DNA of 54,858 nt, from the NCBI GenBank assembly GCA_037478935.1, contig JBBFLR010000009.1:1-54858 (forward strand), written 5' to 3'. Shown here in pieces: positions 6,627-8,961 of the stretch (the first letter of the stretch is position 1; each line of letters begins with the position of its first letter). The stretch is from Candidatus Methanosuratincola sp. Its GTDB lineage: Archaea > Thermoproteota > Methanomethylicia > Methanomethylicales > Methanomethylicaceae. Under the pieces are notes generated by a model that saw only the letters and a program-made list of their open reading frames with translations, made no database searches and had not been told where the DNA came from. Made by a program: the position numbers and the translations under genes.

Positions 6627-7832
6627 CTAACTCACTTCTAGCCCGTACTTCTCGGCGATCTCAAGAAATGCCCCCGCCACATACCTTACTTGGTCCCAGG
6701 TGAGCCCGTAGGTGTTGAGCTTGAAGTGCTTTGTCAGGCCGGGCTGTATCCCAACGATCTTCCTTGCTGCCAGCTCGTCGTAAAGGAAGTACCCCTTCCG
6801 CTTGTGGCTCTGGGAGACCCTGAAGAAGGGCTCGGTCTCAAAGTGGGTTAGCGTGTGTCTCTTCGGGCGCTCCCCGATCTGCTTTACCCCCTGAATGCGC
6901 TCGAGCTCCCCCACGAGGAACCTGGTCTTCTCGACCTCCTCGTCCCACCTCTCGACCCTCTCGACGACCGTGGGGAAGGACGCTATCAGGGTCAGCAGCG
7001 GCGCGCCCATCACGGTGCACCCGAGCAGGGCCAGCTCCTTCGAGACGAATCTCCTGCCCGTGAGGTCGCCCTGGACTGACGGCCTGCTAAGGAGCTTCTC
7101 CTCGAGGCTCTTCGCGAGTGCGAGTATGCCCGTGGGGGCGCTCGCAGCCCAGCTCTTGTGCCCGCTTCCGGTTATTACGTCGGCGTGGACCTTCCTCCCG
7201 TCTACCGGCATCACACCTGCGCTGTAAGCGCAGTTGAGTACGAACGGAACACCGTAGTCCTGGGCTATCCTTCCGACGACCTCTGCGGCATTGACGTTGC
7301 CGTACTGGTAGTCAACGTGCGTCAGGAGCACCGCCGCCGGCAGCCTCCCCGTCTCCGACTTCACTTCCTCGATCTTCGCCGCGTAGGCGTCGAGGTCGAC
7401 CTTGTACTGGGGCGCCCCCCCGACGGGGACTTCCTTGACCCTCAGCCCTGCCAACTCAGCGGCGATGTAAGTCGAGTAGTGTGCCAGCCCGTCCACCACG
7501 ACGCAGTCCCCGGGCTGACCGAGCATCCGGAAGGCAATGAACTTTGCTTCCCTACAGCGCGTCACCACCCTCGCTGTGTCCATGCCGAGGAACTCAGCCA
7601 GGTCGACGTAAAAGTCCTTGATCGGCGGCCTCTCTATCATGTCGAGCCGGGCCGACTTTGGAGGGCACCAGTCGCAGGTCGAATAGCCGTCCCCAAACTC
7701 GATTATCGCCCTCATCGCCTCCTCGCTGAGGACCCCTCCCCTCTGGATGGGCTGGAGGTTCACGTGGTCCTCCTCGGAGAAGTCCCTCTTCAGGTTCCTG
7801 TACTTGTCGAGCCTCTTTCTTGGTATCTTCAA
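6627..7832 (-). CDS. pscS: O-phosphoseryl-tRNA(Cys):Cys-tRNA synthase (SepCysS)
   Basis: PLP enzyme that converts Sep-tRNA(Cys), made by SepRS, to Cys-tRNA(Cys). Strong match to archaeal SepCysS: GYSTCDWC (Cys53/Cys56) and LLGCTVMGA (Cys272) hold the three catalytic cysteines, GSGHKSWAASAPTG holds the PLP Schiff-base Lys (about 226), and TRYFKL-like KHFKLNTYGL closes the fold. About 401 residues from TTG at 7832, whose TTGA overlaps the stop of the 61-aa gene upstream. The frame is open to 7883, so a longer N-terminus is possible. SepRS is not in the window. Located just downstream of a tRNA-Cys gene. Confidence 0.93.
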   Translation of the reverse strand: MKIPRKRLDKYRNLKRDFSEEDHVNLQPIQRGGVLSEEAMRAIIEFGDGYSTCDWCPPKSARLDMIERPPIKDFYVDLAEFLGMDTARVVTRCREAKFIAFRMLGQPGDCVVVDGLAHYSTYIAAELAGLRVKEVPVGGAPQYKVDLDAYAAKIEEVKSETGRLPAAVLLTHVDYQYGNVNAAEVVGRIAQDYGVPFVLNCAYSAGVMPVDGRKVHADVITGSGHKSWAASAPTGILALAKSLEEKLLSRPSVQGDLTGRRFVSKELALLGCTVMGAPLLTLIASFPTVVERVERWDEEVEKTRFLVGELERIQGVKQIGERPKRHTLTHFETEPFFRVSQSHKRKGYFLYDELAARKIVGIQPGLTKHFKLNTYGLTWDQVRYVAGAFLEIAEKYGLEVS

Positions 7833-8014
7833 GGCTGATGAACACCGGCCTCTTCTCTTATCCTCTTCAGCAGCGCCTCGCAACTCTCGGCAGCTTCCTC
7901 TATCCTCTTCAGGTCCGCTTCTGAGAACCTGTGTAGCGGGGCTGTCCTCCTCAGGATCTGCCTCAACGCCAGCATCTCGCTAATTATCCCGTCCACGCTC
8001 TCGGAAAGGCCCAT
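7829..8014 (-). CDS. Small helical protein between tRNA-Cys and SepCysS
   Basis: 61 residues, highly charged and predicted mostly alpha-helical, containing LALRQILRRTAP and EADLKRIEEAAESCEALLKR. ATG at 8014 has GGTGA six bases upstream; TTG at 8017 is the alternative. Its stop overlaps the SepCysS TTG start. No family recognised. From its position it could be a small accessory protein of the SepCysS pathway, perhaps playing the role that SepCysE plays in methanogens, where it bridges SepRS, SepCysS and tRNA; that is inference. It lies only 12 nt from the 3' CCA of tRNA-Cys. Confidence 0.7.
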   Translation of the reverse strand: MGLSESVDGIISEMLALRQILRRTAPLHRFSEADLKRIEEAAESCEALLKRIREEAGVHQP

Positions 8015-8026
8015 CAAGAATCACCA

Positions 8027-8102
8027 TGGAGCTAGGGTAGGGATTTGAACCCCAGTGAAACGGGTCTGCAGCCCGTCGCCTAAACCACTCAGCCACCCTA
8101 GC
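8027..8102 (-). tRNA. tRNA-Cys (GCA)
   Basis: Full cloverleaf on the minus strand: acceptor stem GCTAGGG / CCCTAGC, D-arm, anticodon stem ACGGG / CCCGT with loop CTGCAGA (anticodon GCA), T-loop TTCAAAT. The discriminator is U73, the known tRNA-Cys identity base, and CCA is encoded. No intron. Sits at the head of the 61-aa / SepCysS unit, so the amino-acid acceptor and the enzyme that finishes its cysteine may share a primary transcript. Confidence 0.96.
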
Positions 8103-8171
8103 ACGGAATCAGATTCTCCTTGCAAAGCTATTTATTTTTTCTTATGAGTGCAACGTAGGCATCGGAATGGC

Positions 8172-8211: not shown

Positions 8212-8961
8212 ATGGAACTCAAGGAAAGCGAAAGAATCCGGTACAGCAGACAGACCCTGATTAAGGGATGGGGCGAGGCGGCCCAGCTGAGGCTGAAGGC
8301 ATCAAAGGTCGCTGTAATAGGTGTCGGCGGTCTTGGGAGCCCCGCTTCTCTCTACCTGGCTGCGGCAGGCGTCGGCTACATACGCCTGATCGACTGCGAC
8401 GTGGTCGATCTCTCCAACCTCAACAGGCAGGTCCTCCACTGGAGCAGCGACCTCGGAAGGCCAAAGGTCGAGTCTGCGGCGATGAAGTTAAGCCAGCTCA
8501 ACCCCGAGATAGCGGTAGACCCGGTAAACGAAGCCCTCACCATTGACAACGTGACCGAGCTGCTGAAGGGCATTGATGTGGTCGTAGACGGCCTCGACAA
8601 CCTCAAGTCCCGGTTCCTAGTCAATCAGACTTGTGTGGATCTGCGGGTTCCGTACGTCTACGGGGCAGTCTACGGGATGGAGGGGTTCCTGACCACCATC
8701 GTTCCCGGTAGGGGTCCGTGCCTCAGGTGCGTATACCCCTCGGCACCGGCTGCCGCCGAGACCTTCCCGGTGCTCGGTACAGCGCCCGGCGTGATAGGAT
8801 CCCTGGAGGCAGCCGAAGCCCTAAAGCTGATAACCGGTCATGGTAGACCTGCGGTCGGGCGACTGATAGTGTACGACGGCGAGCTCATGCGCTTCGACGA
8901 GATCGCAATAAAAAAGGATGAGAGGTGCCCTACCTGTTCAGGGCAGAGGCCTACTCAATGA
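8212..8961 (+). CDS. E1-like adenylyltransferase (HesA/MoeB/ThiF, UbaA-type)
   Basis: Activates ubiquitin-like sulfur carriers by C-terminal adenylation, for molybdopterin, thiamine or tRNA thiolation, or for SAMP conjugation. 249 residues from ATG 8212 (an in-frame ATG at 8167 would add 15 that fit the family poorly). Contains the ERIRYSRQ opening, the nucleotide loop VIGVGGLGSPAS, DLSNLNRQVL, DGLDN, and two zinc pairs CLRC and CPTC. A small archaeal modifier protein is not seen nearby. Its 3' end overlaps the next convergent gene by 11 nt. Confidence 0.9.
   Translation: MELKESERIRYSRQTLIKGWGEAAQLRLKASKVAVIGVGGLGSPASLYLAAAGVGYIRLIDCDVVDLSNLNRQVLHWSSDLGRPKVESAAMKLSQLNPEIAVDPVNEALTIDNVTELLKGIDVVVDGLDNLKSRFLVNQTCVDLRVPYVYGAVYGMEGFLTTIVPGRGPCLRCVYPSAPAAAETFPVLGTAPGVIGSLEAAEALKLITGHGRPAVGRLIVYDGELMRFDEIAIKKDERCPTCSGQRPTQ

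Follow-up and report, generated by a model that had tools for sequence, protein, structure and literature searches.

A tRNA-Cys, SepCysSn and SepCysS gene cluster conserved in the Methanomethylicales

Introduction

The question raised by this locus is whether a tRNA-Cys gene, a 61-aa open reading frame (ORF) and the gene for Sep-tRNA:Cys-tRNA synthase (SepCysS), packed together on one strand, work as a unit, and what the small protein between them is. The locus lies on a 54,858-nucleotide stretch of DNA, here called the window, from a relative of Candidatus Methanosuratincola (Methanomethylicota). A first-pass annotation grouped the three genes as a single cysteine module that could couple the supply of tRNA and enzyme, and suggested that the small protein could act like SepCysE. 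In SepCysE of Methanocaldococcus jannaschii, SepRS is bound by the N-helix (residues 1–24), the SepCysS dimer by the N-terminal domain and tRNA by the C-terminal domain (111–213) (PMC5688128). In the main text of Mukai et al. (2017, PMC5424206), the peptide homologous to the N-terminal domain is named SepCysSn if encoded separately and SepCysSN if fused.

Results

Gene order and junctions

The tRNA-Cys gene, the small ORF and SepCysS follow one another on the minus strand (Table 1). ARAGORN and the sequence confirmed the tRNA-Cys(GCA) of the first-pass annotation, with discriminator U73 followed by an encoded CCA. The 12 nt between this CCA and the ATG of the small ORF, TGGTGATTCTTG, contain GGTGAT, which is complementary to the 3′ end of archaeal 16S rRNA, and the stop codon of the ORF (TGA, 7831–7829) overlaps the TTG start of SepCysS to give TTGA. 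The ORF had thus been placed and described correctly, including its good ribosome site and the overlap.

The search for SepCysS covered 151 related genomes. In each of the 19 family genomes in which the locus is assembled (the window's and 18 others), the order is tRNA-Cys, a 56–61-aa ORF, SepCysS, and the identical order was present at 14 of 14 named Methanomethylicales loci (L083–L096), the nearest named genomes being Candidatus Methanosuratincola. Because the same order recurs in the 19 family genomes and the 14 named loci, the arrangement is more than chance, and reading the three genes as one cysteine module was right. The earlier proposal to look for this order in related genomes was thereby borne out; loss of the ORF from relatives that keep SepCysS, which would have spoken against the module, does not occur within the family, where the ORF is conserved throughout.

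The junctions are conserved as well. GGTGA stands immediately 3′ of the tRNA in every locus of the family, the ribosome-binding site starts 1–3 nt past the CCA in nearly all members, and the gap from CCA to start codon is 10–12 nt, with no T-run, in nearly all family genomes. The small ORF and SepCysS overlap by 4 nt in 15/19 family genomes, the remainder having gaps of up to about 23 nt. A separate promoter and terminator between tRNA and ORF, which the first-pass annotation had named as evidence against a shared transcript, are absent, the 12 nt being too small for both. A folding scan of the tRNA–ORF junction found no special RNA structure (z 0.23), and no conserved alternative structure was found there.

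On the other side of the tRNA, a TATA-box-like element, AAAAAATAAATA, ends 26 nt upstream of the tRNA-Cys 5′ end. A AAATAAATA-type element lies at an equal distance from the tRNA in nearly all of the 14 named loci, and the conserved TATA-like element occurs upstream of the tRNA only. ARAGORN, run both with and without introns on the other tRNA matches of the genome, revealed no second tRNA-Cys gene. Unless one is missing from the incomplete assembly, this is the tRNA on which SepRS and SepCysS must act. CysRS, also encoded in the genome, may charge the same tRNA-Cys.

Table 1. Coordinates of the features discussed; positions without a locus or contig name are those of the window.
Feature	Position	Strand	Basis or remark
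TATA-box-like element AAAAAATAAATA	8129–8140	minus	sequence; putative promoter
tRNA-Cys (GCA), G37, U73, encoded CCA	8102–8027	minus	ARAGORN and sequence
Ribosome-binding site GGTGAT	8020–8025	minus	one base past CCA
sepCysSn, 61-aa ORF (ATG at 8014)	8014–7829	minus	conservation, selection, profile, predicted structure
sepCysS (Sep-tRNA:Cys-tRNA synthase), TTG start at 7832	7832–6627	minus	TIGR02539
ThiF/MoeB-like E1 gene	8212–8961	plus	PF00899, 246 bits; divergent neighbour of tRNA-Cys
SepRS, window's genome	G000:C11:13629–15188		597 bits
TRAX	L049:6215–6868		PRK14562 and cluster type
Truncated CysRS	L048:1993–3165	minus	
Truncated CysRS	G000:C6:46070–47164		
Truncated CysRS	L163–L178		
SepCysSn gene, unclassified archaeon	L112:2822–2998		E=4e-19
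SepCysSn-like ORF, Nezhaarchaeota	L191:2555–2770		
SepCysSn-like ORF, Nezhaarchaeota	L192:2320–2544		
SepCysSn-like ORF, Nezhaarchaeota	L193:2251–2463		
SepCysSn-like ORF, Nezhaarchaeota	L194	reverse	

Identity of the small ORF

When the window's ORF was compared with those of five congeners, dN/dS values of 0.21–0.48 were obtained, indicating purifying selection, and the other two frames showed no synonymous excess; together these results mark it as a protein gene. Neither Pfam nor NCBIfam has a family for the 61-aa ORF, and a single-sequence PDB search gave no match. Only a family profile (A1) revealed SepCysE: built from 18 family members, it had as its best PDB match SepCysE (MJ1481) of M. 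jannaschii (3wks_C, E=5e-8, hmmsearch; 3wkr_C, E=1e-7), the result of a profile comparison that the first-pass annotation had advised. The homology to SepCysE rests on this family profile and not on a single sequence. The match spans residues 51–97 of SepCysE, in its SepCysS-binding N-terminal domain, and SepCysSn and SepCysE have in common the motif L-x-K-x-(A/S)-P-x-H-x-L between two helices. AlphaFold predicted a two-helix hairpin (residues 3–24 and 32–56, pLDDT 92). When this model was compared with 350,542 PDB chains by Foldseek, the top five were all the SepCysE N-terminal domain, with an rmsd of 1.1–1.2 Å; the E-values were weak (0.5–0.8) though the ranking was clean, reflecting the small size of a 61-residue hairpin fold. 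The profile match and the structural matches of the hairpin identify the small ORF as SepCysSn.

Profile A1 was also run on 398 genomes of the phylum (E≤1e-5), where it matched 26 genomes, all 26 of which have SepCysS. Elsewhere in the phylum, SepCysS of other families carries this domain as an N-terminal fusion (L029, L030, L031), and in L028 a split copy of the domain precedes SepCysS. As a positive control, the profile picked up a longer ORF upstream of SepCysS in two Asgard loci (L153, E=8e-6; L162, E=0.004); at about 219 aa, this ORF is as long as full SepCysE.

In more distant relatives (Hadesarchaea, Nezhaarchaeota and Methanoperedens), SepCysSn is not adjacent to SepCysS, and this includes Hadesarchaea that are among the near relatives of the window's SepCysS. 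As the small ORF is missing beside SepCysS in these distant relatives, it is not a universal partner. Absence next to SepCysS need not mean absence from the genome: that reading was rejected for the Nezhaarchaeota, which have an unlinked copy. There, a stand-alone SepCysSn-like gene encodes 70–75 aa and is linked to neither SepCysS nor tRNA-Cys; its surroundings are conserved, and in L191–L193 it sits between a gene for a conserved membrane-protein-like product of about 335 aa and a convergent gene of about 513–582 aa. At the unclassified archaeal locus L112, a SepCysSn gene precedes SepCysS and has no adjacent tRNA-Cys.

Cysteine enzymes and the divergent neighbour

SepCysS matched TIGR02539 with 495.5 bits (cut-off 365) and PRK09331 with 558 bits. 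Its PLP lysine K226, in SGHKS, and C53, C56 and C272 are invariant in an alignment (A3) with 16 relatives. SepRS of the window's genome is on a different contig. It belongs to a TYW1-TRAX-SepRS-EndoV-RFK (riboflavin kinase) cluster, a type reported in PMC8762117; the assignment of TRAX rests on the PRK14562 family match and on that reported cluster type.

In 17 genomes, the CysRS of the family ends about 80–100 residues early, with the catalytic motifs intact and the C-terminal anticodon-binding region missing. Its extent is like that of the ligase MshC (TIGR03447, 20–411/411), and it scores higher as CysRS than as MshC (400 vs 247 bits). CysRS is full-length in other families of the class, and two family members (G012, G016) have no CysRS above the cut-off. 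In the window's genome no cysK/cysM-type cysteine synthase scored above the TIGR01136 family cut-off; matches over the cut-off are also absent in most of the family, and strong in G010, G018 and G020. The truncated CysRS of the family and the missing cysK/cysM match point to the indirect route as the chief supplier of cysteine.

The ThiF/MoeB-like E1 gene lies divergently beside tRNA-Cys in 14/14 of the named Methanomethylicales loci. In six loci of the Hadesarchaea type (L097, L099, L101, L102, L106, L109), a gene of this kind immediately precedes SepCysS in the same orientation. For the window's gene, a start at 8212 is likelier than one at 8167; most ThiF/MoeB-like alignments start at about residue 16. 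The E1 protein is a possible sulfur-delivery partner of SepCysS; our literature search found no paper naming both ThiF and SepCysS.

Discussion

Taken jointly, the results make it very likely that the window holds a tRNA-Cys-sepCysSn-sepCysS operon whose small protein is a SepCysS-binding hairpin helper, with SepRS supplied from another cluster. Co-transcription of the three genes is plausible, and strongly implied by the conserved TATA-like element ahead of the tRNA and by the 10–12-nt gap, which is too short for a terminator and a promoter; a single transcript from which the tRNA is excised is the natural reading. This transcript would start at the putative TATA promoter just upstream of the tRNA. 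Excision of the tRNA would leave a very short 5′ leader starting with the sepCysSn ribosome-binding site, and SepCysS would be translated through termination–reinitiation at the TTGA overlap. By homology, SepCysSn corresponds to the hairpin with which SepCysE grips the SepCysS dimer; it would bind in the same way and is most likely a small dimeric clamp, stabilising or positioning SepCysS. SepRS would then charge tRNA-Cys with phosphoserine, which SepCysS would convert to cysteine. The earlier suggestion that tRNA and enzyme supply are coupled is plausible.

The three genes could instead be merely close, with the tRNA transcribed and terminated alone and SepCysSn–SepCysS driven by a weak promoter within the tRNA gene. 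Promoter-like sequence can occur in tRNA genes, and the lack of special structure in the folding scan would fit. However, the short gap is filled by the ribosome-binding site and free of T-runs in nearly all family genomes, and the conserved TATA-like element stands before the tRNA only, so that we regard this explanation as quite unlikely. Conversely, the layout might be a regulatory device, in which SepCysSn/SepCysS output responds to tRNA 3′ processing, or to the charging state of the tRNA as sensed while the transcript is being made. The nearly constant position of the ribosome-binding site just past the CCA favours such control, as does the use of the genome's only tRNA-Cys gene, but plain operon compaction predicts the same layout and a conserved alternative RNA structure is not seen; we therefore hold regulation of this kind to be unlikely. 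Also unlikely is the reading that in the Methanomethylicales the sole tRNA-Cys serves as the 5′ leader of its own enzyme's mRNA, so that maturation at the tRNA 3′ end would generate the 5′ end of the mRNA, a single base ahead of the ribosome-binding site, and thereby gate the synthesis of SepCysSn and SepCysS. A literature search on archaeal tRNA–mRNA transcripts and tRNase Z yielded nothing directly usable.

Other readings concern the small ORF itself. Its shortness and its lack of a Pfam or NCBIfam family could point to a spurious open frame, a reading already refuted: the ORF is conserved in 19 genomes, evolves under purifying selection, has a ribosome-binding site of its own and is homologous to SepCysE. 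That same homology might suggest a full SepCysE substitute, also binding SepRS and tRNA; this is very improbable, as only the N-terminal domain is represented and 61 aa leave no room for the N-helix or the C-terminal domain. The first-pass suggestion of a SepCysE-like action therefore holds for the homology, and fails for SepRS and tRNA binding, since the N-helix and the C-terminal domain that serve them in SepCysE are absent.

With SepCysSn as a helper of SepCysS, a whole order of methylotrophic-methanogen-related archaea is placed firmly among the users of tRNA-dependent cysteine synthesis. The very compact, conserved tRNA–mRNA operon is also one in which tRNA 3′ processing and the expression of a tRNA-acting enzyme could be studied jointly.

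The arrangement is real and conserved, and of a kind already described. With SepCysE of class I methanogens (MJ1481; PDB 3WKR, 3WKS, 5X6B, 5X6C) the window's protein has in common the SepCysS-gripping hairpin domain. It differs in that the homologous hairpin starts after only about five residues, where SepCysE has its SepRS-binding N-helix, and in that it ends after helix 2, without the tRNA-binding domain; lacking both, SepCysSn cannot do everything SepCysE does. The SepCysSN fusions carry the same domain, which in the window is a separate gene. From SepCysSn as described in the main text of PMC5424206 the window's ORF differs in nothing essential: it is homologous to the SepCysE N-terminus, stands as a separate gene directly before SepCysS and has no C-terminal domain, the features by which a SepCysSn is recognised. 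That main text does not describe SepCysSn or the operon for Methanomethylicota, and the main-text literature mentions SepRS, and not the operon, for the Methanomethylicales lineage. Mukai et al. do report a 'compact operon encoding tRNACys, SepCysSn, SepCysS, and SepRS' in Ca. Bathyarchaeota BA2. The window likewise combines tRNA-Cys, SepCysSn and SepCysS in a compact cluster, whereas SepRS, part of the BA2 operon, is on another contig. Since SepCysSn and an operon of tRNA-Cys, SepCysSn, SepCysS and SepRS were described earlier, the window is a further example of this kind.
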